From contig OX235279.1 in assembly GCA_944472155.2 (NCBI GenBank), positions 160,664,199 to 160,728,198 on the forward strand: a DNA stretch of 64,000 bases. The letters are read 5' to 3'. Below, in pieces: positions 8,120 through 50,118 of the stretch (positions are counted from its first letter, which is position 1; the number at the start of each line of letters is the position of its first letter). This DNA is from Trichobilharzia szidati (lineage: Eukaryota > Platyhelminthes > Trematoda > Strigeidida > Schistosomatidae). The position numbers were made by a program, and so were the translations under genes. The notes beneath the pieces were generated by a model. The model saw only the letters and a list, made by a program, of their open reading frames with translations. It searched no databases and was not told the DNA's origin.

Positions 8120-8441
8120 TGTCAATGGACGTGAACATTGAACGTTTGTTTTACTGGGTCTGGCAGCCATTGGCAGGCAATTGAAGGTGCGAATGGAACG
8201 ATCTCTTGCAAGTTGAAAGAAGACTGGAATTAAATACGAATAAAAGTACTTTATAACTTCATTTGTACATAACATTTGTTTGCAGACTTTGTAGTTTTCT
8301 TCACTTTAATTGCCAAACAATATAATTTCGTTCAAGGAATACTGGTGTTTTGGATTTAAAGTTGAAGGAAATACATAGTGTTTATCGGTTCAATCGCTTA
8401 AGTCTTCATTACATAGGAACTTAGGGCTAAGTTCCTTGACA
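8120..8441 (+). repeat. 5' LTR of the outer element
   Basis: 322 bases, TGTCAATGG to CCTTGACA, matching 16173-16494 base for base by eye. As the 5' LTR it should contain the element's promoter, but the exact start site is not visible. Confidence 0.95.
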
Positions 8442-8572
8442 GTTTTTATTCTTCTCCAAGTCTTCGTGGGCGCCTTCTGGAAATCGTCTGGGTGTACTTA
8501 CTAGATCTGCAGCCAGCTTCTCTTTGGACAAGGATTATCAACGCAATTTGGATTCTTTGGTGACGCTGGATA

Positions 8573-9423
8573 ATGCCTGGGTCAAGAAAGGGACATGGCA
8601 CAATGGAAGCAGACAAAAAAGTAAGTCACGATGAGTTGCCTGTTAATTGTAATGATATGTATGATGCTCAGCATGTTAAGTTTGATGTTCACGCTTCACC
8701 GTTAAGGGATAGTAAGGGTTTAAAATTGCCTAAGTTCGAACCGCGATACTTCGATGGAAACCCAGCCGACTACCCACAGTTTATCAAAGAGTTTGAGGTC
8801 ATGCTGAGTGGTTTTGTATTAAATGATGAAATGAAGTTAATGTATTTGTTGAGATATTGCACTGGTGTGGCTGCAAGAGCCATACAGTGCTGCAAGTTTA
8901 TGCCCCCGAACGAAGGATATACTGAGGCCATGAAGATACTACGTCAAAGGTTTGGAAAACCATATATGATATCCCGTAGTATTTTCGAGACAGTGAAAGG
9001 TAACGGATCACAGTTGAACGATAATCCAGAGGAACTTGCAGAGTTCTTGGATAATCTGATGCTATATCGAAATACACTCATGTCTTTTAACTGCGTAGAT
9101 GAATTGAACTCAAGTTCCGTGCTTGAGACTGTTGCCAGGAGATTACCTGTTCGTCTACAAAGGAAGTTTATAAAGGTTTGTTCACGTCTAGAGGAGGAAG
9201 GTTTAGAGCCCAGGTTGGATGACCTTGTGAGCCTGGTGAAAGACAGTGTCAACCAAGCTTTGAGCAAGTTTGCTAGTATACTGCATCCCTCCCCTGGAAT
9301 AGAGAAATCAGAGAGTAAAATGCAATCATTTATGACGAAGGGGTCTCAGCGTATTGGATATCGAGAAACCTGTATGGTTTCTAGTAAACCTAATGATTGT
9401 GACAGCTTCAGTGGGACGTCCCC
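8573..9423 (+). pseudogene. BEL/Pao gag, 5' part (interrupted by the nested element)
   Basis: Starts at ATG 8573, 131 bases after the 5' LTR. Residues about 48-215 match the DUF1759 gag region of BEL/Pao elements: a Leu-Pro-Lys-Phe-Glu-Pro-x-Tyr-Phe-Asp-Gly start, a Pro-x-Phe-x-x-x-Phe-Glu helix, and a Leu-Leu-Arg-Tyr-Cys-Thr-Gly-x-Ala-Ala-Arg-Ala segment. A Arg-Gln-Arg-Phe-Gly-Lys-Pro box and a Leu-Pro-x-x-Leu-Gln-Arg-Lys-Phe motif follow. Gag forms the particle that packages element RNA. The frame is interrupted at codon 284 by the nested insertion (TSD TCCCC at 9419-9423). The frame then reads 29 codons of LTR sequence and stops at 9511. With the insert and one TSD copy discounted, the frame is in register with 14318-15431, so the gene was open before the insertion. 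Confidence 0.88.
9419..9423. repeat. target-site duplication TCCCC of the nested element (left copy)
   Basis: TCCCC precedes the left LTR and recurs at 14313-14317 after the right LTR. The duplicated target lies inside the outer gag gene. Confidence 0.95.
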
Positions 9424-9817
9424 TGTAGGATTATTTTTATCCTACAGATTTAGTCCTCCCTCAATACTGACAACACAGAGTCTGGGCTTAGCAATAGTTA
9501 AAACAGAATAACTTGACTTTAACTTTATCTGTTTCTAAAACATAAAATAAATCATAAAATTACACCAAGAAAAATGTACAATCCACCGTCATTACAAAAA
9601 ACGGACAAAAACGTACCGTACAGTATTGAAGGTACGGACAAAATGAACAGTCAATTAATTACATGTATATACAAGTACAGTGACAGACAAAAAAGAACAT
9701 TCAAGGTCACCATCACGTGGTGTGAGTTACATTAATTGGCCAATAATCGCGACAAAAAAGGTCACATAATATTGATTGGCTGTTTATCATACAGTTATCT
9801 ATCTGTCGCGATTAACA
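9424..9817 (-). repeat. 3' LTR of the nested element
   Basis: 394 bases, equal in length to 13919-14312 and differing at two positions (near 9448 and 9464). In minus sense it begins TGTTAATCGCGAC directly after a purine-rich CGGGGAG. Its far end is a small hairpin with arms TGTAGGAT and ATCCTACA (9424-9446). Confidence 0.95.
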
Positions 9818-11230
9818 CTCCCCGCGAACGATCACCACGTTGACCTTTCGTACGCTTCTTATATCTTGTTCCACTCCTTGAGTTGAAGTTTTCAAACACA
9901 GCGTCCTGACGTGGCCATCTTGGTCATAGTACATCTGCTTAACTATAGCCTTTCGCCAGAGACCTCTCTGTGTGTCAGCACTGTTAACTAAGACGAGATC
10001 ATCAGGTTGTAGGTTATGCTTTATATCCAACCACTTAGATCTTGTTTGCAGCATCAGAAGATATCCACGTAGCCATTTATGCCAGAGCAAATCAGTCAAA
10101 TATTTTGGAAGTAGTTGACTATAGTGTTGGAAGAAAGCATATCCATACATAGCATTCGTTTTACCTTTGTAATATTGCAATTTTCTTAAGAATTCACCAA
10201 TTGCTGAACGAGCCACAGTTAAAAGTCTTTTTGGATCGAAGGAAATACACAAATCAGATGCATCGTCCTCACCGACTACTTTATGCGTACGTCCCATAGA
10301 ATCGTCAGCTTCAATCGAAACTCGCAGAATCGCATAATAAGCACAATAATGTGCTTGACACCATGATCCAATGTCATCAGCATTTTCTGCTGGAGAATAA
10401 AACTCCATGGAAGTTACAACTGAAGGAATCATTGACAACCAATTAATATAGACTGCATCTGGGATGTCACCTTGAGCACAGTTGGTATTCAAACCGAACT
10501 GCTCCAGAACAAGATGTAAATCAGATAAATAAATTCCAACGCACTCAGCTTGACACTTGTCTATTGCAGATGAAAGGTTTGAAAACTTGCTGTCATACGT
10601 TTCTCCTGCTTCACACCAACCTTTTACAGGATCTGCATTTATGACATATTCAGTAGTTTTCGTATGGAAATTTCGTTTTCCATAACAATCACGCAGAAAC
10701 AGTTTACCAGAACTATATCCCATCAGTTCATGAAGTCCAACTTGTAATTCAAAGGAACTTTCAGCATGTTCCACGTACATTTGTTTGTCTTCATTACGTA
10801 GAAATTCTGGTTTAGGATCCTCGAGACGAACACTAAGTACATTATCCAAAGAAACATTTTTAAATCCATCAACTTGTCGTACGTCATCATAGTTAGGAGT
10901 ATTAGTTCCAACAGGAATCCCAGCAGTTGCAAACGTAACCACATTCAAACTAGTAAAGTCTGGCTGTGAGAAATTAACTTTTTCAAACGTAGAAGGCCAT
11001 GGTAAACTTGTTAACAACCTTTCAGCATTATTTACAAGTCGTTGGAAATTTTTAGACACTGATCTATTTACAACAGCGACAAATGATTCAAACCTTGCAC
11101 GAACACCAAAGGGATCACGGTACGACTCGATAAAACCAACATAGTTTTCAACAACAGGATTCTTATCTTTAACACATAACCTGAAGGCATCTTTGTGAGT
11201 GGCTACTGAGCCGGTAGTGAAGCTTTCAGC
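9812..11230 (-). pseudogene. captured dipeptidyl peptidase III segment fused to BEL DUF5641 C-terminus
   Basis: This continues the frame of the spectrin fusion after the TAG at 11233-11231. DPP III is a cytosolic zinc exopeptidase that removes dipeptides from peptide N-termini. The match runs in family order: ESFTTGSVATHKDAF near 11224, a Gly-Phe-Ile-Glu-Ser-Tyr-Arg-Asp-Pro-Phe-Gly box, and PNYDDVRQVDGFKNVSL near 10895-10845. The zinc site reads HELMGYSSGKLF where the family has HELLGH. Then come a Gly-Glu-Thr-Tyr-Asp-Ser-Lys-Phe box, DKCQAECVGIYL where the family has EECRAE, and an Ile-Asn-Trp-Leu box. So the second zinc His is Tyr and the zinc Glu is Lys: two of three ligands are lost. From about 10114 the sequence turns into the BEL polyprotein C-terminus (WHKWLRGYLLMLQTRSKW, then a Asp-Leu-Val-Leu-Val box), and the stop lies inside the LTR. 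No introns. Confidence 0.88.
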
Positions 11231-13879
11231 CTACTGATGCCACATTTCTGATTCGATTTGGTTAAGCGAATGTGCTTTAAAATCTTTACAACAATCGACT
11301 AGTAACTTCATCAGCTCACTACAGTCACCATATTCAAGCTGCAAAGATGTGTCCGAGGGAAGGGCATCTCTTAACTTCTCACGACGTTGACTTAGAGGGA
11401 TTTGCAGGTCATGGTAACGTTGGGCTAACTGTCTTTGTTCTTCTTGGATAATAGGAGCGTCGAGATGACTTTCTGCAGCAAGCGTGTCAGCCTGGACTTT
11501 AAATGCATCTATACGTTCACGATGAGTAGCTACATCAGATTCAAGCAAGTTGTGCAGTTTTTGTGCGTTCATCACACCGTTTAGATCACGAACGACATCC
11601 TCTGAGGCTACATGAGCTTCAACATCATTCAACCATAACTCGACATCTTCTACGTTGCGAGCGAACTGTTGTTGCCTACTTGCTTGATCTAAATTTTTCT
11701 TCTTGTCTCCCATGGCATTTACGAGATGAGACCAAGTTTCATCCAACTGTTCAATCTTTACTTTTATTTCTGGCGAGTTGTAATGGTTTGCATTTAACAA
11801 ATCCTGACCTGTCTTTTTAATACCTTCAACGCGGGATTGGTCCGCTTGTATTTCTGCCTCAAAACTCTGATGCTTCTGCACCTTTGTTTGCAAGTTCGTG
11901 GACTCTTTGTAACTTTCATCAAGTGCATTTTTAAGTTTTCCTGATATCCACGACTGCATTTCATCTGCATCTCTATCGAACATTTGGTAACGGTGGGAAT
12001 CTTCAAGACGCTGACAGCGGTTCTGAGCTTTCTCTTTTAATGCATTTCGTCTACTTTGAAGACCTTCCTGAATCTCATGAACCTGTGCAGCCTCATAGTG
12101 GTTTGACTCGATTAATTTTGCAGCGAATTCATCAAGTTGTCGCATCTTTTCTTCTTGTGCTAAAAGTGACTTTTCGAAGTCTTGATGTTTCCTGATAAGT
12201 GCTTCGACAGAATCGAGTGAGTCTCCCACATCATTTATTTCTAGGAGGGCCTCTTGCTTACCAATCCAAGATTCCGACTGTTCAGTGTCGCGGTAAAAAT
12301 ACTGAAGGCCCATACACTGTTCTAGCTGTTCACGTCTTTCCTCACACAACTGCATCAAGGAGGCTCTCTCTCTTTCAAGGGTGGAAAGTTTAGCAGCTAT
12401 GTCTCCATTACAGGGATGGCCAACACTTAGTAATGCCTGACCTTTTTGCATGCATGTATCGAAACTGTCAGCTCGAGAATTTATCTCAGCGGTGTATTCC
12501 TTATGTCGCTCTACTTGGGCTTCAGCACCAACTACATCCTTTGCCAAATCATCCGCCAATATTAACGTCTTCATTTCATTCATCCAGATACTCAAATCTC
12601 TCCAGTCAACCAAAAAGCGATGCATCTTGAATGACTCTTCCAGTTTACCTCTCCTATCTACAGCCTGACTTTTCAGCTTATCCCATGCAGTAATTAAGGC
12701 GTCATACTTGCCTTGTATAGTGTCTTGCAAATCAGGATGCTTCTGTGCAAGCGCTTTAGCATCATCTCCAAGTTGAACAATCTTTTCATCTGTGTCAGTC
12801 AAATACCTTTCTAATGCTTCGTGCTTCCTTTGTAAGGCTTGAACTGAGGCAAGATCACGACCACAGTCCTCAATGGATAAAGGAATGGACTTTTCATTCA
12901 CCCACGATATAGTTTTATCTATGTCTCTAAAGAAGCGCTGTATGTCATAGGCTTCCAGGAGCTTTTCTTGTCGTTTTCTAGCCAGATCTTTCAGACGTTC
13001 TAGACCTTTTCGGACCTCTCTGGACTTTTCTATGACTAGGGCATCCTCAGGAAATTTCTCTTTTAGAAGTTTATCTGCCTTCCGATAGATATCTTCGACA
13101 CGACTTTCTTGATTCTCGAGATCTTTTGTAAACTCATTAAACCCTTTTTGAAGTGTCTCAACATCTTCCAAGTCTTGACCTAAACCCTCTGATGTTACGT
13201 AAGTCTCTTTTTCACGTATCCAGAAAAGTATCCCGTCGACTTGGCTTAAAAACTGGACAAATTTAAGCGTTAGGTTAATAAGACTTGATTTTTCTCTGAA
13301 AATAGCCATAAGCCTTTCCCACAGGGCATGCAATTCATCAAGACGGTTTTTCATAATATCTGTTGCGTAGTGTCCCTGACCAATCATTTCTTCTCCCGTA
13401 GAATCTAGAGCAGAGAGTGTTTCAGCATGAACTGTTACTTCGAACTCAAGCTCTTGATGTTTCTGTTTTTTCAGCTGAAGATTACTGAGTTCTTTAAAAT
13501 CCTCGTTTGCATAGGTTTGCAGCTTTTCATTGATCCAACACTCAAGTTCATCGGCATTCCACTTAAAATATTGATATGCTTTAAGCATGTCCAGAAACTT
13601 AGATATGGTTCTGGCGGACTCATCATTAGGAGATACAGAGACTTTATGAGAAGTAGAAGGCTTGTAAGGCGATTTATTGTGACAAGAACATTCGCGACTA
13701 CCTTGTCGTAATCTTTCTAATTCCATTTCTTTCTCTTTTTGGACTATGCGCAATTTCGCTAGCTCCAATTCTATCATATAGCGTGATTCATACTCGTTGC
13801 TTCCAAGGAAATCAGCTTCATTACTCTTTCCTAATTGTGGAGTTAACGACGGCATAGTTTCATAACTTTCGACTGCCAT
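11231..13879 (-). CDS. chimeric ORF: element leader, seven alpha-spectrin repeats, start of DPP III
   Basis: 882 codons from ATG 13879 (39 bases past the 5' LTR) to TAG 11233-11231. Residues 1 to about 98 are an element-type leader with a charged coiled coil (residues about 34-60) and a Cys-x-Cys-His patch. From about residue 99 (near 13585) the protein is alpha-spectrin. Seven triple-helix repeats of about 106 residues follow, with the invariant Trp of each first helix visible (ECWINEKL, LFWIREKE, ISWVNEKS, SIWMNEMK, ESWIGKQE, QSWISGKL, ELWLNDVE) and signatures such as GRDLASVQALQRKH and GDSLDSVEAL. These align in order with repeats 1-7 of animal alpha-II spectrin. At about residue 848 (11338) the sequence switches to DPP III (LEYGDCSELMKLL). 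The TAG falls where family members have a Tyr, so it looks like a later point mutation. Spectrin normally builds the membrane skeleton; a function here is not shown. Confidence 0.92.
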   Translation of the reverse strand: MAVESYETMPSLTPQLGKSNEADFLGSNEYESRYMIELELAKLRIVQKEKEMELERLRQGSRECSCHNKSPYKPSTSHKVSVSPNDESARTISKFLDMLKAYQYFKWNADELECWINEKLQTYANEDFKELSNLQLKKQKHQELEFEVTVHAETLSALDSTGEEMIGQGHYATDIMKNRLDELHALWERLMAIFREKSSLINLTLKFVQFLSQVDGILFWIREKETYVTSEGLGQDLEDVETLQKGFNEFTKDLENQESRVEDIYRKADKLLKEKFPEDALVIEKSREVRKGLERLKDLARKRQEKLLEAYDIQRFFRDIDKTISWVNEKSIPLSIEDCGRDLASVQALQRKHEALERYLTDTDEKIVQLGDDAKALAQKHPDLQDTIQGKYDALITAWDKLKSQAVDRRGKLEESFKMHRFLVDWRDLSIWMNEMKTLILADDLAKDVVGAEAQVERHKEYTAEINSRADSFDTCMQKGQALLSVGHPCNGDIAAKLSTLERERASLMQLCEERREQLEQCMGLQYFYRDTEQSESWIGKQEALLEINDVGDSLDSVEALIRKHQDFEKSLLAQEEKMRQLDEFAAKLIESNHYEAAQVHEIQEGLQSRRNALKEKAQNRCQRLEDSHRYQMFDRDADEMQSWISGKLKNALDESYKESTNLQTKVQKHQSFEAEIQADQSRVEGIKKTGQDLLNANHYNSPEIKVKIEQLDETWSHLVNAMGDKKKNLDQASRQQQFARNVEDVELWLNDVEAHVASEDVVRDLNGVMNAQKLHNLLESDVATHRERIDAFKVQADTLAAESHLDAPIIQEEQRQLAQRYHDLQIPLSQRREKLRDALPSDTSLQLEYGDCSELMKLLVDCCKDFKAHSLNQIESEMWHQ

Positions 13880-13918
13880 ACTTTTCGAAACTTTCGTCTG
13901 CCTTACTGTTCGAAACTT
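13880..13918 (-). promoter_or_regulatory. short leader between nested 5' LTR and the chimeric ORF
   Basis: 39 bases containing two copies of AAGTTTCGAA about 28 bases apart (minus sense). A primer-binding site should lie here, but no tRNA-complementary TGG start was recognised. Confidence 0.4.
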
Positions 13919-14312
13919 TGTAGGATTATTTTTATCCTACAGGTTTAGTCCTCCCTCAGTACTGACAACACAGAGTCTGGGCTTAGCAATAGTTAAAACA
14001 GAATAACTTGACTTTAACTTTATCTGTTTCTAAAACATAAAATAAATCATAAAATTACACCAAGAAAAATGTACAATCCACCGTCATTACAAAAAACGGA
14101 CAAAAACGTACCGTACAGTATTGAAGGTACGGACAAAATGAACAGTCAATTAATTACATGTATATACAAGTACAGTGACAGACAAAAAAGAACATTCAAG
14201 GTCACCATCACGTGGTGTGAGTTACATTAATTGGCCAATAATCGCGACAAAAAAGGTCACATAATATTGATTGGCTGTTTATCATACAGTTATCTATCTG
14301 TCGCGATTAACA
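13919..14312 (-). repeat. 5' LTR of the nested element
   Basis: 394 bases, two differences from the 3' LTR. In minus sense it lies upstream of the chimeric ORF and should drive it. Confidence 0.95.
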
Positions 14313-14317
14313 TCCCC
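14313..14317. repeat. target-site duplication TCCCC of the nested element (right copy)
   Basis: Matches 9419-9423 and restores the outer gag frame when only one copy is counted. Confidence 0.95.
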
Positions 14318-15431
14318 AGCGGATAAGTTACAAGCTGCAAGGCAAACACGGTTGTGCTTCGTTCGTTTGCAAGAAGTGCATACAAAGGCGAACTGTGAAA
14401 CAACGAAGTCAGCGTCATCGTGTTCTGACTCCGAATCGTGTATCGATAATGGTGCGGTGAAGAAGCCTGTAGTCGTAACTGGTAGTCCATTGTTGAAAAG
14501 AGTGGCTCAGACGACACCGCAGTTTGTGCATAAGAAGAAGATTACAGCTTCAGTGTCCAGTTCTGACTCCACAAGCTTACTAGGTATTACTAGTCAGAGT
14601 AAAGGGATAAAACCTCTATGGATTCATGAGGAAGTACCTAAGTCATCTGCGGCTGTTATTGAAGAGGTTGAAAATGATGAAGTCAACCATACAAACGGCG
14701 GTAAAGTGGGTATTTGTGACAATGGTCACGATAGTTCACATTTGTCTGTGGCTGATCATGACGAGATTAGTGGAATGCCTACTACTACTGAGTTGAACGA
14801 AGGTTCTGTACAACTTGAAAGTGAAGAAGAATTAAAGGCAGATGCGGTTGCTGCAGATATGAATAATCGTGAGACCGTCAGGGTAAATGATCCGAGTGTA
14901 GCCCAACTATCGACAGATGTTAAAGCTGAACTGGAGCCAATAATAAAGGATAGCAGTGGTGGTAATCCTGTGGTTAGACAACCTCCTAAAGGTCTAACAA
15001 CAACAGCTTCTGATACACCGCTAGGTTCTTCAACTGGTGTCAGCCAGTCGTCGTTGGTGTTGTCATATGCAGAAAAAGAGCCGTCCATGAATCAACGTGT
15101 CTTATGCATTGATTATGCTAGTGACGGTCCGTTCGAAGGGACGAAAGTCAATGGCCAGTTTAGTGACGATAAGCCAACTGTGTACAGGATGGTAACTGTT
15201 AGACTGACTTGCACGAATCAAGGCATTTCAGGTTTCAAATTACTATTTGAATGTTATTATCTTTGGTGCAAATTACTGTGTACATTCGCTTGGTTGGTCA
15301 GATACGTCGTATGTTTGTTAGTCATCTACCTTCCACGATACAATGTCATGGGCGTGTTACCATTGAGAGTCGAGGATATAGATGGTGGAAGGAGGTCAGC
15401 AAATGAGCTCAACGACGATTTTCCAACTTAA
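14318..15431 (+). pseudogene. BEL/Pao gag, 3' part, with degenerate zinc knuckle and hydrophobic tail
   Basis: Continuation of the outer gag after the nested insert, with stop TAA 15429-15431. It opens with Ala-Asp-Lys-Leu-Gln-Ala-Ala-Arg and a knuckle-like box LCFVRLQEVHTKANC. In this box the spacing of a CX2CX4HX4C finger is kept but the second Cys is Arg. A long acidic, Ser/Thr/Val-rich low-complexity segment follows (about 14440-15200). Near 15220-15345 lies a strongly hydrophobic, Cys/Tyr/Leu-rich stretch (about 35 residues around LLCTFAWLVRYVVCLLVIYL) that could be a membrane segment and is not expected in a gag. The total frame with 8573-9423 would be about 654 residues. No pol gene follows, so the element looks deleted after gag. 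Confidence 0.75.
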
Positions 15432-15760
15432 GGGCGTAAACTTGAGAAGAGTTGTAGGCGTACTGCTGTAAGTCCTACAATTCTTCAAGGGTAGTACGTC
15501 GAAGAGCGGTCCATCGTACTTGGTGTATTATTTTGTATATATGTTCATGTTGTATATAATCAATTGGTATCATCCCTCTTCTATGTGTTGATTAACTTTG
15601 TTTGTGTCCGGACGTCTTCCACCTGGATCGTCAACCTGAGAAGAAATGTAGGCGTACTGCTGTAAGTCCTACAGTTCTTCAAGGGTAGCTCGTCAAGGCA
15701 GAATCCGCAATATTTGATGTATTGATTGTACATATGTTTGTGTTGAGTAATTAAGTGGGT
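15432..15760 (+). repeat. imperfect tandem duplication (about 120-bp unit) in the outer element
   Basis: A block starting near 15439 (AACTTGAGAAGAGTTGTAGG) recurs near 15639 (AACCTGAGAAGAAATGTAGG). Both continue with GCGTACTGCTGTAAGTCCTACA, TTCTTCAAGGGTAG, a CGTCG/CGTCA motif and GTAY TTG-type AT-rich tails. Each unit contains short TGTAGG...CCTACA arms. It lies in the non-coding part between gag and the 3' LTR. Confidence 0.8.
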
Positions 15761-16172
15761 GCCGATTCATCTGATTGTCGGTTAATTTTATAGTTGTCGC
15801 ATTGTGTGAATCATCTTGTAATGTTTTGTAAGCACTTCTGAATTCGCTTCTAAACTTGTGAGTGAATCGTGTAATGTTAGAGTCAGCGTACGCGATTGGA
15901 TACGCCGGGGAGAGGATTGGGCCAGAGTGGAATGAAGCAATCGATACTTTGTGAACGAGATCAGTGGTGGTATTGTCGTCAGAGAGCGTAGACCCTATGC
16001 GCCGGGGAGAGCGTGTCGGTGTGATGTGGTCTGTTTGCTGTGTGTTGGGCTTTTTTGTCTTGCTTTTCCAATTTTAGCCTAGTCCCGATTGGCCCAGGTT
16101 CCCGCATTGGCAGTTCAATTCAAGGTTACCGCCGCTGTGGAAAAAAGGGGTGGACCCTTTTTTGCCGGGGAG
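15761..16172 (+). other. non-coding 3' region of the outer element with purine-tract repeats
   Basis: No frame of note. CGCCGGGGAGAG occurs near 15904 and 15999, and GCCGGGGAG occurs a third time immediately before the 3' LTR (16164-16172), where it should act as the polypurine tract priming plus-strand DNA. The nested element has CGCGGGGAG in the same position. Confidence 0.6.
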
Positions 16173-16494
16173 TGTCAATGGACGTGAACATTGAACGTTT
16201 GTTTTACTGGGTCTGGCAGCCATTGGCAGGCAATTGAAGGTGCGAATGGAACGATCTCTTGCAAGTTGAAAGAAGACTGGAATTAAATACGAATAAAAGT
16301 ACTTTATAACTTCATTTGTACATAACATTTGTTTGCAGACTTTGTAGTTTTCTTCACTTTAATTGCCAAACAATATAATTTCGTTCAAGGAATACTGGTG
16401 TTTTGGATTTAAAGTTGAAGGAAATACATAGTGTTTATCGGTTCAATCGCTTAAGTCTTCATTACATAGGAACTTAGGGCTAAGTTCCTTGACA
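16173..16494 (+). repeat. 3' LTR of the outer element
   Basis: 322 bases, no difference from 8120-8441 seen by eye; followed by the TSD CAAGC at 16495-16499. Confidence 0.95.
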
Positions 16495-24075: not shown

Positions 24076-25467
24076 ATCAGTCATCTGCTGCCTCCTGTGA
24101 ACCAACGCAATACCCCCGAGTTTTATAGTTTCAAGTGTGCAACAAATAATTTATAGCTAATAGCACCTAAAATGAGCTCATTCGCTATTGACGTTAAAAT
24201 GGGGAACCTCATAGTGGTGGCCAATCCTAACGTGATATCCCGGTGGCGTTATATGGACAATCTACGAGCAGAAAGGACTGACCAATGAATAAAAGTGACT
24301 TGAGATCATCTTTTCCTCCATCTTCGCAAGAGAATGCAGAATCTCAGTGCTCTTACTATGGCGTCAGTGTGCATGAACAGGCCGCAGTGAAACAGACAGG
24401 ATGTTTGAAGCCATTTTATTAGTTATAGGAACTAACATTCATGTGTCCTCTTACTAGAACAATACATATCATTCAAAAAATAGTGCAAATCATTGAACCT
24501 GTCAACCAAACTATGGTGTCTGTCTCGTGTGAAGACTTCTTTCATTGTTTCAAAGGTTCAGACGGTTGGTTTCTTAGCACAGACTAACAGAGCAGTGTCA
24601 ATTTATTGTTGCATAACGGAGCCATCATCAGAGCTGGGTGCTGATCTCAATTTTCACCTAGTTTTCTGCTGGTTACTGTACTCTACCGATAATCAACCAT
24701 ATCCTCAGACACTAATCAGATATGTACCATATCCGAGCATGGCTGCAAGCTGTTTTGTAGAAGTCAGTATTCTAACAAAAACAAAGTTCAGTAAAAACAG
24801 AAATGAGTCTAATGTGTCATTAAAAATGAATTCGGCCATACGATCACCAAAATGATAATTAACATTTGCAATATGTAATCTTAAGCACGCTGTTATCACT
24901 ATCAAAACTATGCTATTTGTTATGAAAGTGTAATGTAATACGAGCAGGCTGCTTTTATTTCTGCAAAACTAGACATTAAAGGGGCAGAGAATGCAAGTGA
25001 AAAAGAGAGTCAACTTCAGGATGTGGTTGGATAGATGAGATCCATTGTAGTATACATCGGCACCCAAGTTAAATCATCATGGTTTCATTATAAGTGACAT
25101 TCAAAGATCCGGCGAAGAAGAACATGCCGACTTGTAAAGTGTTTCTCAGGTCCTGTAGAAAAGGATTTGAGCTGACTTTTAAACTTCGAGTCGTCATAAT
25201 GCATACTGATGTCCTACATATTACGCGGTGCCATTAATAAAGCATAGCACAACCTAATGGGCGTAACGCTTGATTCACTGCACACCAACGTACATAGAGA
25301 AAATGGAATATTCTTATAGGAAGGACTTGTTTGGCGGGTGTTTAAGATATGGATTTGAAGGTTACTAAAAGGTTTCTGTCCAAAGAGCTTACTTAGGCTT
25401 AACACTTAGCGACATTTTTCACGGGTGGAAACAAACATAGCTATAATAATAAAGCTTCATTTGAGAC
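24076..25467. other. no gene recognised
   Basis: Open stretches such as 24493-24855 lack family motifs and splice support. Confidence 0.3.
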
Positions 25468-26425
25468 GTGCGAACACAAAACACAGAGATTTCTAGCTTA
25501 TTTAATTCCAAAATGCGACAAACAGCGGGCAATGAGGAAACAGGCATAAAATGGACTCACACAGAAAACTTGGAGGATCTGGACTTCGCCGATGATATAT
25601 GTCTGATTTCCCACAAACTGGAAGATATGCAAGTGAAAAGCAACAAGTTGGCAGAACAAGCATCAAAGATAAGAGGGACTTCAGGTGAACATAGAGAAAA
25701 CAGAGGTGATGAAGATTCCTGGGCAACATCACCAACAGCAACAACAACAACAGACAACGATCAGCATAAATGGGAGGAACCTGAAAGAAACAACCTCTTT
25801 TACCTACCGACCTGGGAAGCACCGTTTCAACTACAGGCGGACGGAGCTGACGAGGATATCAAAGCAAGAATCGGAAGAGCAAGACAAGCTTTCACTACTC
25901 TCAAGTCTGTGTGGAGGTCAACAGCACTCAGCATGAAAAACAAGATCCAGATTTTCAACTCCAATGTGAAGTCAGTGCTACTATACGGATAAGAGACTTG
26001 GCGCGTCATAAAGAGGATCTCAAACAAACTACAGACCTTCATCAACAGCTGTTTTCGCTCAATACTTCACTCAAGATCAGATGGCCGGCCAGAAAAGATC
26101 AGCAATAGTGAGGGATCTCTGGGAGCGAACCAACCAGGAACCGATTGTGCAACAAATAGGCAGGAAGAAATGGAGATGGATTGGCCATACTCTGAGAAGA
26201 CAAACCATCAAGTGACATCACTAGACAAGCCAACACTCGAGTGGAACCCGAAAGGGAAGCGGCGAGTTGGTCGTCGGTGCAAGGGTGACTTGGAGGAGGT
26301 GATCTGAAGAGGAGATGAAGACGTGTGGGCATACTTGGAGCCAGGTGTAGACTCTAGCAGAGAACCGAACGCAATGGAGACGCACGGCTGAAGCCCTATG
26401 TTCCTCTGGGAATTAAAGGAAACAA
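25468..26425 (+). mobile_element. SR2-like RTE retrotransposon, 3' third (plus strand)
   Basis: Plus-strand reading gives the RTE ORF2 C-terminal order. ENLEDLDFADDICLISHKLED (about 25563-25625) holds the Phe-Ala-Asp-Asp active-site box intact. A shifted frame gives VNIEKTEVMKIP-type sequence, followed by INGRNLKETTSFTY and AFTTLKSVWRSTALSMKNKI, the helix before SVLLYGSETWR. Further frames give a Leu-Gln-Thr-Phe-Ile-Asn segment and a Trp-Arg-Trp-Ile-Gly-His-Thr-Leu block near 26170. The 3' end has the GAAGCCCTATGTTCCTCTGGGAA tail near 26390-26415, shared by other RTE copies and by a SINE in this window. Several frameshifts make it inactive. The 5' half of the element is missing. Confidence 0.85.
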
Positions 26426-27747
26426 TAATAATTCCAAAATATTTCTGCTTTAAACCGGATTTACATGTAAAGTAATAACCTGAAGTATATCATAGGACAC
26501 AGTGCTGTTCCATATGAAGAAAGAAACAAATCAGTGAACTATTACTTCCTTTCCTTCAAGAATTGTACTGTTGCGTCGAAAGCCAATTAATTAGGTGCGC
26601 GGGTACATGTAGTGATCACTCTATATAATTGCACGATTAAAACCATAAGAATTATAGAAGGTCTTAGGTATTCGGGTGGGTGGAAACACTCGTAGCCCAG
26701 TAGTTTGAGCAGCGTCTAACCTACTGATGACATTTTGGTGTGGTTGTGTTCTCTGAGCTGGATGGTTTGGTTGAGAAGCTTTCATTGCTCTGATGAGCAA
26801 CATCTTCAGCGAATACTTCGATGTGAATACACTGAATGCAAGACTTCAACAAGACACTTCTCTGAGCACTTGCAAACGACTCACATCAACTAGCAGTGCT
26901 TCTTGATCAAATGATCATTCTGATTAAAACACCAGACAGTCACTTAATTCCATTGGAGTCGAGCTGCTTATCAGTGGCTGGCTGGGATCGCGGTAGTTCG
27001 GCTCTGTGATCCAAATAGGACTGGACATGCTGCTGATGGGTTCAGGCCCAAAAGAGATAAAGGGCTGTCCATTGTTTGGGTAGTTTGGATAATTTGGTCA
27101 GCGAACACTACAAGTTGATCTGAGTGGTGTCCAACTATTCATGTCAATGAGTCAGCATACACAGCATTAGGTGAAATATATCATTTTTCTTCAGTAAGTC
27201 CATGGAGTCCTTAAGCCGACAAGGTTCAGATACCACCCTGATTCCAATCCAATTATGAATTCTACGCAAGATCCATGATTTTCTTTCATTCCATTTTTCT
27301 GATCGGAAATAGTAAGGTGTGAGTCTGACTGAAGGGCGTAATGGTGCAGCAGCTCATGACGAACACACAAAATCAAATACTCAGCAGGAACTATACACCT
27401 GTTTGAAATATCAGGTAGCATGGTAATATTTAGGGTTTTTCAGAGACAGTGCAAGCAGTAAATTGTGTTCCCAATGTCGACTGTAAACGGGAAGGAAATA
27501 AGGTAACTCAGCCTGATTCATTACAAATGTTGAGGGACTGTCAAGTGAATGCAGCTTATATCCCCATCAACAAACAGCACATCCTCACAATGATAAACTG
27601 ATGTACCACATCTATTCGCATTCAACACAGCTACAGCAATGAAGGGAATAAGTCATATTGGATTCTACATTCTATTCCAAAGTGACAAGAAGCGGTTCTC
27701 AAATAGTCACATGGTTTATGCAAGCTCGCCAAAATAACATTGGATAT
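26426..27747. other. no gene recognised
   Basis: AT-rich; a block at 26690-26830 (GCTCTGATGAGCAACATCTTC and neighbours) looks repeat-like, but no second copy was found in the window. Confidence 0.3.
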
Positions 27748-28955: not shown

Positions 28956-29901
28956 ATAGTGTCAGAAATATCAATGGATCTCAAATTACCACAACCCATA
29001 AGTCATGCTACAGTCACCTTTATAAATGGATATGTCGCTCATGGTATGATCTCTTTATAGACCACCTGTGTGGTGAGTCGGAGACATTCTTACAATACAT
29101 AAGCCACATCCGTACAGAGTATTCTCATATTTGCAATATTTTTTAGTGTATTTTTCAACGATTATGCGACAATTCTGCATCTGAATTTTGATTGGTTGTT
29201 CAGGGTCACTGTGGTTTTGGCTATGATAGTCTAACTTTGCCGAGAACGCCATGAAAACCTCCCGGAATACTTTTGTGTCTTAAGGGACCCTGGAGGCATA
29301 TCAATGCATTTCTCTCAAATTTTCACATTAGGTTACAAAATTAAGTGTATGTGTATAATAGTAGTATGTTGTTATGCCTGATGGTTTGTCGTTCTGCGTA
29401 TTTTTCCTGTTTTCTCTTCTAGATTACCATACTGCCTGAGTTAATTGACACCAGCTTTACCAAGTGTTTTAACGGCTGCACTTTAAACAAGAGGTAATCT
29501 GTTAGTGGACGGTGCACTGGTTTTAGTGGTTGGCCTTTCCTTTCTACACCGAGATTCAATGATCATTAAAGTTAGTTAGCATTCTGTTTTTAATCATTTG
29601 TATACGTGTCTGAATAAGATAATTATATGTCTGGTAACCTTCATGTTTTTGAACAGTACTGAACTTCTGAATTCGGTAGTTTGCCTGAATCTTTTACCTG
29701 AACCTACTGAGTTTCAGTTCCTCATTTCTTATATTCAACAGTATAATGTAAAGCCAGAGTGCTAACCAGGCTTTCTTAGAAGCTAATGTTTAAATCCTAG
29801 AAAGGCATTTCCTTCCACCACTTAAATAATTAGGCTGGTCTCATTGTAGTGAAAAGTACTTTAAAGTCTCGGAAACATCTGAAGTTCATCCTAACACTGC
29901 C
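28956..29901. other. no gene recognised
   Basis: Probably the 5' flank or truncated 5' part of the LINE that follows; no endonuclease motif seen. Confidence 0.3.
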
Positions 29902-31278
29902 TTGGCGGATATAACACACATTCCATTTACGGTTATTTTTCAAATGTTTCTGACTCAGGTTAGGCTGCCCAGGGACTGCAAAGATGCTTTTATCAGCCCC
30001 ATCTTCAAAGTTGGAAACAGAAAGTTAATATCTCACTACCGGCCTATAAGTCTGACCTGCATTATAGCAAAGGTATTGGAAACACACCTAAGGGATCAGC
30101 TCTTAGCTAATATGGAGAAACATGGCTTACTGGCAGTGGAACAGCATGGATTCCGACCAGGACGATCCTACCTGACAAACTTACTGTTAGCTAGGGAAGA
30201 TTGGGTCGAGGCCAGGGATAAGAACCATCTACTGGACGTTGTCTTTATCGATCTTAGTAAAGCATTCGATGAGGTATCCCATTTAAGTCTTCTTAGTAAA
30301 CTCAAACGTTTTGGATTTGACCAACACTTATGTGAGTTGTTTAGCGATTACCTGATGGATAAAAGGTAGAAGGTAAGGGTTAATGGTGTACTGTCAGGTC
30401 GGAAAGTAGTACTCAGTGGAGTACCTCAGGGAACTCTACTTGGCCTCCTGCTATTCCTATTATACGCAAAATGAAGTGCCAAAAATTCTTACCTCATCTT
30501 CGTTACTATTCGCGGATGATATTAAGAAATGGAAAACCGTAAATAGTGACGATGATAGGTTGGTACTACAAAACGATCTGGATAAATTAGCTGAATGGGC
30601 TAACCTCTGGAGTCTGGAAGTTAATTCCAAGAACAACACGGTAATGCACCTAGGTCAGAAGTCTTACACGTCGCACTCCCAAGGACACACTGAACTGCCA
30701 TATATTAAGGGACAAAAGTTCTTGGGAATTATTGTAAGCCATGACTTGAAAACAATGGCAAATTGTAATGGAGCCGCAGCTAAGGCCTTTCGAATGCTAT
30801 GGGTACTTCGAAGGGCTTTCAAACGATTAGACGAGGGTATGTTCCAAGTACTCTATACAACATATGTCAGACCTCGTCTAGAATACTGCATACAAGCGGC
30901 GAGTCCATGCTTTGAAAAGGAGGCACATATCCTGTAAAGAATACAGAGGGTAGGAACCAAATTAGAGAGATAAGAGAATGGAGAATCTAAATCTCTTCCC
31001 ATTATCATCCTGAAGGTGGAGAGGCAACTTAATTTTGGCTTACCGTATATGAAAGAGTGATCCAATTCTCTCCCTTTAGGATATATTTACGGGGTCACCA
31101 CAAGGTGCTCAAACCGAGGTCGAACAAAATACGTGTGGAGTTTAGATTTTCTCACAGAGTGGTCAACGGCTGGAACTCCTTACCTGATTTGGTAGTAACA
31201 GCTCCATCGGTTAACGCTTTCAAAGAGAAACTAGATCTTTGCAGAGATATATATCGCAAGGATTACCATAGGCAATAA
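29902..31278 (+). pseudogene. CR1/jockey-like reverse transcriptase, nearly continuous
   Basis: The frame at 29902-30369 covers RT motifs in order: VFLTQVRLPRDCKDAF-type entry, ISHYRPISLTCIIAKVLE, EQHGFRPGRSYLTNLL, and VVFIDLSKAFDEVSHLSLL with the first catalytic Asp. A TAG at 30367 and a frameshift near 30420-30470 (GVPQGTLLGLL region) interrupt it. The frame at 30416-30937 then holds SSLLFADDIKKWK, with the catalytic Ala-Asp-Asp intact, LDKLAEWANLWSLEVN, and VRPRLEYCIQAASPCF. Another shift leads to 31057-31278, ending in WNSLPDLVVTAPSVNAFKEK and TAA. The order is complete from palm to thumb. No endonuclease precedes it, so the copy is 5'-truncated. Confidence 0.85.
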
Positions 31279-32149: not shown

Positions 32150-33770
32150 GAAAACATGAATTTCTCGTGTATTTTGTTCGACTGCATTTTAAACAACCTC
32201 TTATGACTAGGTGACAGAGGTAGCTTTAAAAAAGAGGAAAGGTTAGAAACTTCAGTACCCAAACCATTTATTACAGCATAAACCAAATTAATTCGCATCA
32301 TCTTACGGATGTTAATGAAAAGAGGTTTGGATTTTCCATCCTCTTCTCATAAATGACGTGCGAAATACTTCTAACTATCCTGCTACCTACTAACTGTACT
32401 CTTACCAAGAATTCTAGCCCCTTGGAGCATAGATCAACTGCCTGTATGCAGTATTCAAAATGGGCTTTGACTGACTGATGCTTTCTGCGTGACCACAGAG
32501 CCGAGGGCACAACTGCTTAAGGGCAGTTTTTAGAATTGTGTCCGTTTTAGGACCACCGTACAGTAGGTCGGAATGTGAAATTTTCGGGTCGACCATTTCT
32601 AACCCCTGTTCTCCAAAGTAGAAAGGCAGCATAACTGGCATGCTGGAAATCTGAGGGTAACATCTTACTGCTGTTACATTCCTGTTCCCCAGCAGTACAA
32701 CTTTTTCCACAGACCCCCAGCATAGTGTAAACATCTTATACTATACTACTTTTAGTCTAGTCGCATGGTGGGACCTCTGGGAACATTAGTTCTAACCAGT
32801 GTAGGTCGTTGGTCATTCCGATATGCAAGCTCGACCACCACTTCATGATAGCACCTATTAGTTGGTGTCTAACATATGCTCACAAGAGTACCTTAAACGT
32901 AATCTCATCTCAGCATTCAAAAGTCCTTCTAATTGTCCACAGTGTTCAGAAAGCCTTGGCTCCAGCTGTTTTTAGGTCATGACTGAAAGTAACTTCCTGA
33001 TTCCTTGTCCTTTAATGTTGGGTAATTCTGTTTTCCTCAGGAGGTACGTCGAATAAAATTTCTAGGCTTGGCGCATCACCTCACTTTTAGGAATTGATTC
33101 CTAAACTCCACCGGTTGAACCATTTGTTTAGTGTGTCTGATTCATTTTGTAAGGTCAGGCTGTCGTTGTCATAATTACTTACGGTTCCCCAAGTCTTAGT
33201 ATCGTCCGCAAATACAGACAAAGATTTTTGGTAGTTTGCTAATGTACATTAAGAACAGTAATTGGTCTGAAATCGTGTCCTACTGCACCCTCACTGCGAG
33301 AATATGTCACTTACTTGCCTGCCCGCTTGGCAGTCCGTAAACCAACCACGTAAGCTGTTAGCTAATCGGAACTCTTTTGGTCTACTGAGACCTAAATGAG
33401 GCACCTTACTGATTGCTTTACTAGAATCAATAAAAACTACATCAGTCAGCAGGTTACTATCCGTGGCTCCACATAATTTTTTCTTAGCCGTCAACAGATT
33501 CGTTAGACAGGATTGCCCTGGTGTGAATCTGTGCTGTTCCTCTTCCATTAGGTCATGTTTCTCCACATGAGCTAGTATGCGCTCCTTAACAATTTTCTTT
33601 AACACCTTAGCGACAATATATACTACACCTACAGGTCGGAAATATGTTACAAACTGCATGTTCCCCTCTACGGAGATGGAGCCTACAACTGCATCTTTCA
33701 AGTCCTTGGATAGCCTAGTCTGAGATACAAACATGGTGAATATACCTGTTAATGGCAACTATGCAGTTGC
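32150..33770 (-). pseudogene. CR1/jockey-like reverse transcriptase, older minus-strand copy
   Basis: Same family as 29902-31278 but more decayed and inverted relative to it. The frame at 33758-33291 carries SQTRLSKDLKDAVVGSI, a Phe-Arg-Pro-Val block, EEEQHRFTPGQSCLTNLL and DVVFIDSSKAISKVPHL, where the Ala-Phe-Asp of the first catalytic box has become Ala-Ile-Ser. Many stops follow. The thumb reappears near 32510-32298 with YCIQAVDLCSKGLEFLVRVQ and a Glu-Lys-Arg-Met-Glu-Asn-Pro-Asn-Leu-Phe-Ser-Leu segment. The Ala-Asp-Asp box was not found. Confidence 0.75.
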
Positions 33771-42220: not shown

Positions 42221-42944
42221 ACATTATCACTGCATACCCGTCAAGTGAGGTCCACTGGTAGTATCCTGTAAATAAGCAAAATATGAGATTAGTTGAGGAA
42301 AAATTCTGTTCATCACACTTTAAGCATTAACATTGAGAAAAGTGTACTTACACAACTGCCACTGTTGCCTAACCCTAGTTTCTTTTTCATTTGTCCAGCT
42401 AGCGTTTCTTTCAGGCGCACAGAATAACGTGGGACAAGGCCCCTAAGCCTGCCCCGAACATTCTACAGCTCACTCGAAGTCTGTCCCAAACATTCTGCAT
42501 TGCGCCCGAAATCGTTGATGTTTATTCCTAGCCATACCTAGGACTAAAAATCAATATTGTGAATACATGCTGATTAAACTATAACTTATAAAAGTAAGTA
42601 GGCGCTTCACAATATTACCTGAATTCTTTTCTTCAGCTTACGCCTTTGGATATGTCCTCTCAAATTATGATTTCGTGGTCTTATCCATTATGTCACCAAT
42701 CTCTCTTGACGACATCAGTTGGCCGGAGAACTGCGCCATAATTACAGTTACAGAAGTAAGGACTTCATTAATGAACCTTACATCTCATTATTTTATAAAA
42801 AGCATAGGGCACAATACTGGACTTTGTCACAGTCCCCGAATTGTAAAATTCAAACCCACTTCAGGTTTTAGAACAGGGTACACCATGACTTAAAGTGATA
42901 ACTTTGGATCACTCTGAAGGCAGCCAACCATTTTTTGTTCCTTT

Positions 42945-43080
42945 ACGTTACCAGTGGAACATATGGCCTCAAGCTAGAGGCTTGAAGTTCCGGTAGCAAT
43001 GGTAGCAATACACAACCTTCCCTCTTTACCAGTCTAATTACTGGCTTAGTGAGGTGAAGAAGTGCAGTCTACAAAAAATG
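42945..43080 (-). mobile_element. SINE tail, antisense, in copy A
   Basis: Reverse complement has a short AAGCCTCTAGCTTGAGGCC-like segment, TAGACTGGTAAAGA(G)GGAAGGTTG and a TATGTTCCACTGG end, matching the SINE at 61869-62106. The same SINE is at the same place in copy B (47575-47712), so it was inserted before the duplication. Confidence 0.7.
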
Positions 43081-43155
43081 AGGATTAAACACGCGAACTC
43101 ACAAATATTCCCTTGTACTTTTCGTCTCTTAAAGATGCTTCCAGCTCGTCTAAGT

Positions 43156-43508
43156 GATTGTAGCGGTAAATAATTCCACAAAATTATCGACCACAGCAAT
43201 CATCACTCAACATTGGATGCTGACCCTCACTGTTTAAGTCGACTTGTTTAGCTGAAGGCTTCCGATCAAGCATCGCCGCCATTTGCTACTCCGCCGTGTC
43301 ACGTGCGTGCACGATTACTAGCTAGCTAAGTATTCACTTCAGCCCGCAACTTGGTCTCAAATATATTACGTACTTCGGACGACTAAATCTGGTCTTTTGG
43401 TTTGTCTTTGGTACTCGAAGAGCGAACACTATAGAAGTTGTTGGTATAAGAACTTGCGTTAGTATACTCTGTCCAGTTCGCAAACATTGATACATTCAAC
43501 CTCCAAAT
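43156..43508. other. 353-bp segment present only in copy A
   Basis: Flanked by TGAT at both ends (CTAAGTGATT and CAAATGATC); copy B reads CTAAGTAATC across the join. It is either an insertion in A or a deletion in B through short homology. It contains no recognised feature. Confidence 0.7.
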
Positions 43509-43853
43509 GATCTACATTCTCATTCGGGGATTCTAGTGTGTAGTCACCGTGGACTGAAAGCTGAGTTCTCCCTCGAGATTTGCTGCTAGTACTAAAAATG
43601 TTTGAGATTTTCGTACACAAGTTGATAATTTCTATTGAAGCATCTTTAAATGAATAATCATTTTTAAGTACTTACCGAGTAATTTCTCAAAATTCAGGGA
43701 ATCAGTGACAGCTTCGTTAGACGCCAATCTAAAGCAAGTGTATACTAAAGGTAACAATTATTCCAGCTGGTCAGATACAGTTGTCGTCTTTTTGCCAACA
43801 GAAGATGGAGAATGGAAGTTTGAATTACTGGAAATGAAAACCGTTGAATCGTG

Positions 43854-46600
43854 TTAATACCTTGGAATTGGCGTTACTGAGTCCTCGAATATGTTATAAT
43901 CTGGATATTGTGGTCTGATGCAACCAACTTTGCTGGCAACTGCGTCAATATCCATGGAGTTGTAAAGAGAATCCTTGCCATTCTTCTTTTTTTTTTTCTT
44001 CTTTGCATCCCTGAAAAATATGTACGACAGAAAACGGTACATACCTTTTCGGTCTGTTACTAGGCATTGACAGGGTGTCATCGTTTGTGTCTACTTATTT
44101 TTAGTGCTTTGACCACAGCTTCTCAAAAGCTCTAAAGACTTTTGACAGCTTTCATACGTATCTAGAAAGGTGACAATGGAAATATTCCAAATTACCAGAT
44201 TCCTGTAGTTGACAGAATTCAAACAATGACCATCCAGCCCCAGTGTACACAGGCTCTACTCTAGATGGCTTGCGGTGCTGTTGCATGCACATATACCAAT
44301 TCTCACATACCAAGTGTTTGGGATAGCGACTATACTATCATCTTCTAGAGAACGGACGACAAGAAATCGAAACGATATAGAATTCTGCAAAAGGAATCGC
44401 AAATACGGCAGTCTTTCTTCAATGTGTATCAGATTGCTTAGCAAAAACTAACAGCATAGATATAACTATATCTCAGAAAAATCGGAATAAACTGTCAACA
44501 GCATTAGCCAGTTAGAGGTAGATTTTCCGACTTGATAGCACATAGATGTTACAAAATAACGTTGACGAATTACACGTCAACAGTTCAAGGAACAAATTTG
44601 CCAATTCGATGACTTACTGCAAAGTATCTTTATTTGAATGTATGAAGCAGGGGTGTGACGACTACTTCGTCATTATGCGTTGGGACAGTCATGCACTTGC
44701 AAACAATATTCAAACAGGATATCCAATGTGTTTCGTGAATGAATGTCGAACATCTAGATATCTCTAAATTCCTTGATTTAAATGATGAAATGAAATCGTC
44801 ACTGAAATCTCAGTATGGCCGAAAGCGAATTTTTTCTTCACTTTCAGTTTCCACTATAATTTCTGGTTTACCTAAGGCCAAGATGACATTATCCGGTGAA
44901 TAAGATTTGAATATGGTGTTCAGATACGTCATCTTTCCTTTAGTAAACTCAGCGCCTTAAGTACCAACTTCTTTTGGTACATGCTTGACACCTGTACTTT
45001 TCATTAAGTACACGTGCTCAAGATAACGCTGAGCTGTCTGCTTAGCCACAGAATATCCGCAGTGCAGTGACTCTCTGATCTTAGGCATACAGGATTCGTA
45101 GGGAAACGCAGTGAATCCTTCTAATGGTCCAGGCAGCTCGACGTCATCCGCTTATGTTTCAGAGAATGAATATTATAAACAATATGTTCACTTGTGAAAT
45201 AATTCTCATATTACAGTAAGAAATTACTTAAGTCTGTTCAAGCAGCATCCAAAAGCAGTCGACTGTATTTGGTATTTGATAGCTGGTATACTGCCAGGGA
45301 TAGTCTCCGAAATTAGTGCAGGGGTAGTGGTAGAGTGTTCCTGAATAGGATGGGACCCAAATATATAATAGGAGAAGTCTACCCTCCGTTGCTTTGCATT
45401 GGCCAACCTCATCTTACGACTTATATTTCCTCTGAAAATTATAATGAATGTGACTCCTACTTCTAAGTAGGAACCATATTCCTTGCAGTCCGTTATTGAT
45501 ATCTCCAATAACTTTATCCTGCCAAAGGAACACCAAATTGTTAACAACACCAAGGGTATAGAAGATGCACTGGCTGCAATGGAAATGATTTGACCATGTC
45601 AAGTGGCAAGTCCTCAAGACAAGTTCTGCCCCAATGGTGACTTACTTCAACCTTACCGTGGAATGTATTATCATTTCTCAGGGTATGGTTCCCATTAGGA
45701 AATGTCATCCTAACCTCCAAAAGAAAGCCGATGACCACACACTTATCACAACCTGTTTTTCCATTGTGACCTACAGTTTGTTTTACATTAGAATGAGCAA
45801 GTGTGTCATATATAAACGCTAGAACACTGACAGAAACACTCCTACCACACTTGTCAAATTGCAGACCGTTTTCATAATAGCTCCCTAGAAACCTGATTGA
45901 GGTCATCCCGTTTTCCAAACCCACCATGTTTGCCAATTAAAAAAACGTCACTGACGTATGGCATCGTGATATGACTTAGGAATGGCCACGACTGCTGCGA
46001 AGAACTATTTGATATGGATAAACCCATCATAGTTGATTCGCACGTCAACATGTAGAAAAGTTCCATTGTCAGCCAAATTATCTAGATAACGCTGCAGATT
46101 TTCCTTCAGTCCAATATGATAGTAAACAGCTTGTCCAAGAAATGTAGGTACACATATGCCGCCGTCTTTTAGCAAACCTCTTATGGTTGTTGGCACATGT
46201 CTATTTAATTTACGAATACAGTCCAATATTTCTTGCGCACCAACTCCTGTTACGTCTGATGATGGTAACAATTCCATAATGAACTTTCTGACCAGCTCTC
46301 TGTATGCCACTTTTTCAGGAACAACCTGAAGTTCTATTAAAAATATTTATTGCATAATAATGCATATTACGGTCCTCCTCAGTTTATGAAACAACAGTGA
46401 TGGCCTCACTAGTACTAGGTATACCCACTGTTCCCTGTACAGTTGAACTTGAAAGCAATGGTACTGCATTATCCCTTGACACCTCTTCACTAGATGCGCA
46501 GTAACGTTTCCAGAAATCTCAGTCACTAAAAGCTGCATCGAGTAACCGTTTTTTGACGGCGGTAAAATGTGGAGTAGCTGTATCCAAGGCATTCATGCAG
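43854..46600 (-). pseudogene. CACTA-superfamily transposase (SmTRC1-like), copy A
   Basis: Minus-strand pieces, in order. Near 46590-46400 there is a short Asp-Phe-Trp-Lys-Arg-Tyr block. At 46310-46005 there is a segment with ILDCIRKLNRHVPTTIRGLL. At 45936-45541 come a Val-Gly-His-Asn-Gly-Lys-Thr-Gly-Cys-Asp-Lys-Cys zinc-type box, VRMTFPNGNHTLRND and LEDLPLDMVKSFPL. Near 45553-45224 a Lys-Ala-Thr-Glu-Gly-Arg-Leu block follows, and near 45160-44950 a Glu-Leu-Pro-Gly-Pro-Leu-Glu-Gly-Phe-Thr-Ala-Phe-Pro-Tyr-Glu block. This is the order in animal CACTA transposase-like proteins, which cut and rejoin element ends. The Asp of the expected Pro-Leu-Asp-x-Met-His box is Gln here. Frameshifts and stops make it inactive; some breaks may be introns. 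Confidence 0.7.
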
Positions 46601-46852: not shown

Positions 46853-47574
46853 GAATTAGCTGGTTAAAATCTGAATAGTGAGGAGATCTAGTTCTCACGC
46901 ATCACCCTATTTGTCTTTTGTCAGTTGAATGCATCTCACTTCACAAATAATGACAGATAATGGTCGCTGACTAAGTGCTAGATATCCTGGGACAAGTGGT
47001 CGACACACCCCAGCTAGCATTTCTTTCGGGCGCACAGACTAAAGTGGGACTAGGCCTCTGAGCCTGCCCCGAACATTCTACAGTTCACCCAAAGTCTGCC
47101 GCAAACATTCTGCATTGCGCCCGAAATCGTTGATGTTTATTCCTAGCCATATCGAGAAATAAAATCAATATTGTGAATATTAAATGTTGGTTAAACCATA
47201 ACTTAAAAAATGTAGGCAGGCGCTTCACAATATTACCTGAATTCTTTTCTTCAGCTTACGCCTTTGGACACAACCTTTCAAATTATGGTTTCGTGGTCTT
47301 ATCCATTATGTCACCAATCTCTCTTGACGATATCAGTTGGCCGGAGAACTGCGCCATAATTACAGTTACAGAAGTAAGTACTTCATTAATGAACCTTACA
47401 TCTCATTATTTTATAAAAAGCATAGGGCACAATGCTGGACTTTGTCAAAGTCCCCTGGAATGTAAACTTCAAACCCACTTCAGGTTTTAGAACAGTGTGC
47501 ATCATGACTCCAAGTGATAACTTCGGATCAGTCTGAAGGCAGCCAACCATTTCTTATTCCTTTACATTCCTAGT

Positions 47575-47712
47575 GGAACATAGGGCTTCAGACTAGAAGC
47601 TTGAGGTTTCAGTAGCAGTGGTGTTTATTTTTACCGGATGGGTTGCTAGCCTCATGCGCAATCTTCCGTCTTTACCAGTCTAATTACAGGCTTGGTGAGG
47701 TGAAGGAGTGCA
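47575..47712 (-). mobile_element. SINE tail, antisense, in copy B
   Basis: Reverse complement runs from CTCACCAAGCCTGTAATTAG through a GGTAAAAATAAACACCACTG segment to GAAGCCCTATGTTCCACTAG. This matches the SINE at 61869-62106, including its RTE-like end. Confidence 0.75.
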
Positions 47713-50098: not shown

Positions 50099-50118
50099 AC
50101 TCCTACCACACTTGTCAA

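Follow-up and report, generated by a model that had tools for sequence, protein, structure and literature searches.

A BEL/Pao-type LTR retrotransposon of Trichobilharzia with parts of two host genes in place of its core, probably acquired in separate mRNA captures

The 64,000-nucleotide stretch of Trichobilharzia szidati DNA analysed here, referred to below as the window, carries on its minus strand, from 14312 to 9424, a chimeric element that is very probably a BEL/Pao-type LTR retrotransposon in which the core has been exchanged for pieces of two host genes, encoding the cytoskeletal protein alpha-spectrin and dipeptidyl peptidase III (DPP III). The two pieces likely entered in separate captures of mRNA, and the resulting element was likely mobilised by a complete BEL element. 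A preliminary description of the locus had proposed at its core a BEL/Pao-type LTR retroelement with parts of two host mRNAs, and that proposal is sustained by the termini, the gap-free alignment of the captured segments, a join common to T. szidati and T. regenti copies, the separateness of the native genes, and the grouping of the element DPP III sequences in one clade.

The termini are those of an LTR retrotransposon. The 5′ LTR (13919–14312, minus strand) and 3′ LTR (9424–9817, minus strand) are direct repeats of 394 bp each that begin with TG and finish with CA, agree at 392 of 394 positions with 2 mismatches, and have a short target-site duplication outside them, the 5-bp sequence TCCCC, which abuts the element on either side (9419–9423 and 14313–14317). 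The near-identical LTR pair and the duplication had both been recorded in the preliminary description and are borne out by the comparison. The purine-rich minus-strand sequence GCGGGGAG (9818–9825) abuts the 3′ LTR and is a candidate polypurine tract. At the other end, inspection by eye recognised no TGG-type primer-binding site directly inside the 5′ LTR, and the window offers no tRNA gene for comparison, tRNA and Rfam scans of its sequence having given no matches. Directly after the 5′ LTR, at the expected position of the primer-binding site, imperfect repeats of ~25 bp (AAAGTTTCGAA...GGCAG.CG) are visible by eye (13850–13918, minus strand).

The chimeric element is nested in a second LTR element of opposite orientation, which spans 8120–16494, a setting that the preliminary description does not mention. 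The 322-bp LTRs of this outer element (8120–8441 and 16173–16494, plus strand) are 100% identical, with a CAAGC duplication on both sides. The insertion cuts a gag-like frame of ~650 codons, of which the first part (8573–9423, plus strand) contains DUF1759 matches with Pfam E values of 3.2e-8 and 2.5e-8, and the remainder (14318–15431, plus strand) lies in an ORF that has no Pfam match of its own; base counting shows that the phase at 9423 resumes at 14318. The outer element is probably also non-autonomous, since of all Pfam families only DUF1759 matches its scanned ORFs at an E value under 0.1. The chimeric insertion must be younger than its host element, the LTRs of which have 0 differences, and the 2 mismatches that separate its own LTRs are compatible with this younger age, these numbers being small. 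Both insertions, inner and outer, are likely recent.

Within the chimeric element, Pfam resolves a minus-strand frame that runs from an element leader through seven alpha-spectrin repeats and DPP III (family M49) to a BEL-type DUF5641 tail. The E values are 6.8e-143 for Spectrin (in seven stretches), 1.2e-98 for Peptidase_M49 and 9.6e-18 for DUF5641, the last of which we take to be the C-terminal domain of BEL-type Pol and which occupies 9815–10099 (minus strand). The leader, from an ATG at 13879 (13577–13879, minus strand), resembles the leader of a T. regenti protein, P0174 (68% over 82 aa), and corresponds to the N-terminal portion of a gag-type protein of BEL elements. The frame comprises 882 codons (13879–11234), a TAG (11231–11233, minus strand) and, with no shift of frame, a further 472 codons reaching 9815, so that it passes through the purine-rich tract before closing at a TAA inside the 3′ LTR. 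The preliminary description had reported a single frame with the order leader, spectrin, DPP III and DUF5641; the order stands, but the frame is not open in the window copy, where the TAG at 11233–11231 breaks it. This stop is the only break relative to the protein P0121 of T. szidati, with which the 1304-aa alignment is gap-free.

The captured alpha-spectrin segment (11363–13576, minus strand) encodes 738 aa with seven repeats and aligns without a gap, at 82%, to the alpha-spectrin of Schistosoma intercalatum (P0122). In a longer BLASTP alignment of this region all 16 gap positions fall in the leader, ahead of the spectrin segment. A schistosomatid source for the spectrin is supported by this comparison, for which the native sequences were taken from schistosomatids other than Trichobilharzia. 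The captured DPP III segment (10100–11368, minus strand; 423 codons) was delimited by tblastn with the native T. regenti DPP III (P0003) and corresponds to residues 225–647 of that protein, at 81.8% and again with no gap. Because both segments align gap-free to native proteins, neither contains an intron, in keeping with the initial claim that the host segments are intronless, in sense and in frame with the element. Stretches skipped in the native gene models (6 and 117 aa in the spectrin gene of S. mattheei, 49 aa in the DPP III gene of Heterobilharzia) suggest introns in those genes, and the gap-free coding sequence of the element points to capture from mRNA.

The same design recurs in other copies. 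P0121, the best match of the window frame pieces, is an uninterrupted protein of 1304 aa with the same domain order, belongs to a cluster of 13 member sequences, and matches the two pieces without gaps at 771/831 and 394/415 identities (93% and 95%). In T. regenti, P0014 has the same REKLRDALPSDTS spectrin/DPP III join as the window; this junction, of the kind that the preliminary description had proposed to look for in other copies, is common to the window, the P0121 cluster and P0014. Further relatives retain parts of the arrangement: P0007 (T. regenti) combines spectrin, M49 and DUF5641, and P0001 (T. regenti) and P0002 (T. szidati) combine M49 with DUF5641. Judged from these proteins, the chimeric element is a multi-copy family in two species. 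Outside Trichobilharzia no spectrin/DPP III chimera was seen in the best 120 of 654 matches, in 54 further matches from a protein search that scored the 7995 candidates sharing most words, or in 2 matches to the tail. Native alpha-spectrin and DPP III are separate genes.

These relatives also bear on whether the chimera could be an artefact of assembly or gene modelling, a concern raised at the outset. The assembly is that of a repeat-rich eukaryote, and some T. regenti gene models seem to have been broken by false introns. Nevertheless, an artefact is exceedingly improbable: the domain order recurs in T. szidati P0121 and the spectrin/DPP III join in T. regenti P0014, the target-site duplication is clean, and the outer gag frame continues in phase across the insertion.

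The DPP III sequences indicate how often that gene was captured. In a DPP III tree built from trimmed sequences, all 8 element sequences are separated from 6 natives at a node with 100/100 support, and the element clade adjoins the native T. regenti gene, not those of Heterobilharzia or Schistosoma, among natives in which no T. szidati sequence is distinguished. This topology makes a single capture of DPP III likely, on the Trichobilharzia lineage and ahead of the divergence of T. szidati from T. regenti. Within the clade, the window groups with two T. szidati sequences at a node with 99.7/100 support, and support for the T. regenti branches is low (at most 82.2/57) except for the pairing of P0001 with P0174 at 97.5/99.

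The order of the two captures can be read mainly from P0174, one gene model from a 5597-bp contig. The likeness between its leader and the chimeric leader stops at the leader/spectrin join, and P0174 continues instead into a stretch that resembles the DUF1759 gag of the outer element (45% over 42 aa, E 3e-5). It then carries DPP III from the start Met, preceded by a stretch that may represent DPP III 5′ UTR and followed by DUF5641, and has no spectrin match. We read the segment between the gag-like sequence and DPP III as pol-like; a Pfam scan of residues 1–376 returned nothing, even at E 10. Since P0174 has DPP III from its start Met and lacks spectrin, DPP III was likely captured first and spectrin later. 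In the first step, DPP III mRNA, likely with some sequence ahead of the start codon and ending near codon 647 of about 725, would have replaced the region from reverse transcriptase to integrase and become joined to the BEL DUF5641 tail. In the second, the seven alpha-spectrin repeats would have displaced gag together with the beginning of pol and DPP III residues 1–224, creating the joins from gag-type leader to spectrin and from spectrin to DPP III residue 225. The reverse order would need an in-register re-capture of the N-terminal part of DPP III. Such a later re-capture is disfavoured because the N- and C-terminal parts of the DPP III in P0174 have diverged to the same degree from the native T. 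regenti protein (163/205, 80%, and 232/286, 81%). The preliminary description had envisaged at least three template switches; the chimera and its joins are confirmed, but the joins were likely not made simultaneously, given the spectrin-less P0174. Another T. regenti sequence, P0009 (651 aa), combines a spectrin fragment and, downstream of it, pol-like sequence with a stretch preceding DPP III and a DPP III that begins at its Met; it fits neither simple form and may be a third arrangement or two merged copies.

The joins themselves carry traces of how they were made. At the spectrin/DPP III join (11363–11368, minus strand), comparison with the parent proteins leaves two codons, D-A, assignable to either gene: native Schistosoma spectrin reads KLSDAY, native DPP III FDALPSD, and the element KLRDALPSD. 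Template switching is our best guess for this join because the parents share these codons. At the spectrin start, splicing of a read-through RNA is possible, since the captured spectrin begins exactly at the edge (between KR and YQYFK) of a stretch skipped in the S. mattheei gene model P0123. In a rival account, the joins would have arisen at the level of DNA or splicing, by read-through from an LTR inserted near the gene followed by splicing or deletion, and not by template switching between packaged RNAs. The classical model of retroviral transduction likewise invokes read-through, with a later template switch. However, the edge is seen in just 1 of the 6 spectrin models compared, no skipped edge of at least 5 aa lies at the spectrin/DPP III join in 13 DPP III and 6 spectrin models, and the D-A codons common to both parents are what switching at short homologies would leave. 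We consider an origin of the joins by read-through and splicing or deletion unlikely, if still worth weighing, and favour template switching for the spectrin/DPP III join.

The captured peptidase has lost residues of its zinc motifs. The native motifs HELLGH and EECRAE, residues of which we take to be the zinc ligands of M49 DPP III, read HELMGY (10732–10715) and DKCQAE (10561–10544) in the window. In an alignment of 7 element sequences (P0007 was left out, P0009 spans neither site fully and P0014 spans the first only), the second His of HELLGH is altered in all 6 that cover it, and 2 of these 6 have a changed first His as well. All 5 that cover EECRAE carry Lys in place of its second Glu. The element DPP III is predicted to be a dead peptidase, and because the Lys change is common to both species, the enzyme was probably dead early in the history of the element.

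Such losses also have to be set against the possibility that selection maintains the chimera as a host gene, or as a protein domesticated from an element, and that it is not a mobile element. In its favour, the 738 and 376 aligned captured residues contain 0 indels relative to the natives despite ~18–19% amino-acid divergence, and the T. szidati P0121 frame is uninterrupted over its whole length. Both the window copy and P0121, neither with indels in the captured segments, were noticed for their long frames, however, which limits the weight of this absence. Against it stand the LTRs, the target-site duplication, the nested position and the 13-member cluster, as well as the lost zinc-motif residues. 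The differences that separate P0121 from the window copy show no sign of constraint: 28 of 83 are conservative, where 33–36% are expected for random change, and the window copy has 1 stop where ~3 are expected without constraint (P about 0.2), in a test that used missense and nonsense counts only, with the window as the one copy represented by DNA. Maintenance as a selected host or domesticated gene is improbable in light of these features, and we do not claim selection on the chimeric protein.

What the element retains and lacks is consistent with mobilisation in trans. It resembles BEL/Pao elements in its DUF5641 tail, in the 5-bp length of its target-site duplication and in a gag-type leader whose relative in P0174 continues into DUF1759-like sequence, DUF1759 being a domain of BEL/Pao gag. 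Unlike complete BEL/Pao elements, it has no match to gag DUF1759, protease, reverse transcriptase, RNase H or integrase in the two frame pieces scanned with Pfam. The absence of the last four from these scans marks the chimeric element, at the level of its domains, as a derivative of BEL/Pao and not a complete member. Its retention of both LTRs, the leader and the purine-rich tract adjoining the 3′ LTR leads to the prediction that proteins supplied by a complete BEL element can act in trans to package the chimeric RNA, reverse transcribe it and integrate the product. The chimeric protein is predicted to act at most as a structural fusion, with no peptidase activity; we infer both the mobilisation and the role of the protein. 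A search for a helper BEL element with the DUF5641 tail, in which 26 candidates were scored, matched P0121 itself and P0174 only, and a scan of IMG/VR viral contigs with P0121 found no relative.

Capture of several host genes by one LTR element has precedents. The maize LTR element Bs1 carries parts of three unrelated host genes, for a proton ATPase, a xylan endohydrolase and a beta-1,3-glucanase, and its chimeric gene is transcribed and translated (PMC13317346, PMC5408686). The Trichobilharzia element is like it in being an LTR element with segments of unrelated host genes; these segments are intronless and in sense, and the spectrin/DPP III join recurs in several copies. It is unlike Bs1 in being of BEL/Pao type, in an animal, with other cargo, which fills ~3.5 kb of the 4.1 kb between the LTRs, and with a one-gene form, P0174, also found. 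The avian leukaemia virus E26 encodes Gag-Myb-Ets, in which two unrelated host genes form a Gag-fused protein (PMC4276956). Whereas E26 is a retrovirus with transcription-factor cargo, the present element is a multi-copy genomic family whose cargo is a structural protein plus a peptidase predicted to be dead. For metazoans, Tan et al. 2016, according to PMC5408686, described LTR-mediated retroposition in which LTR-element RNA and cellular mRNA are joined by template switching at short similarities. The retrocopies of parental genes described in PMC5408686 differ from the present case, in which the chimera has proliferated and likely gained another host gene. Among the matches listed in a search of open-licence PMC papers by titles and abstract openings, none described spectrin or DPP III within a BEL element.

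Discussion of how LTR elements capture host genes has centred mostly on retrocopies or transforming retroviruses; here the chimera is a multi-copy family in two species, and the one-gene form beside the two-gene form makes the order of capture readable and testable. A more far-reaching reading, which we offer tentatively and think is open to considerable doubt, is that an animal LTR lineage replaced its replication genes with host genes in successive steps and survived speciation, and that a protein made of gag leader, spectrin rod, dead peptidase fold and Pol tail enters BEL particles. If true, BEL particles would contain a new structural protein, and the element would be a hyperparasite made almost wholly of host parts. 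A practical consequence is that schistosome protein sets carry such elements as unnamed proteins or as ordinary spectrins and peptidases.

Several other features of the window lie outside both LTR elements. Reverse transcriptase fragments (RVT_1) occur at 29830–30369 (plus strand) and 33291–33758 (minus strand), and a DUF6451 match (E 5.4e-18) at 25465–25992 (plus strand) overlaps a stretch, 25580–26432, that is related at 70% to 59833–60667. Large direct repeats at 42395–45857 and 47010–50118, in which 43500–45857 matches 47792–50118 at 95% and 42395–43158 matches 47010–47803 at 87%, are perhaps a tandem duplication. Finally, a 226-bp long palindrome at 21436–21661 matches its own reverse complement at ~90%.
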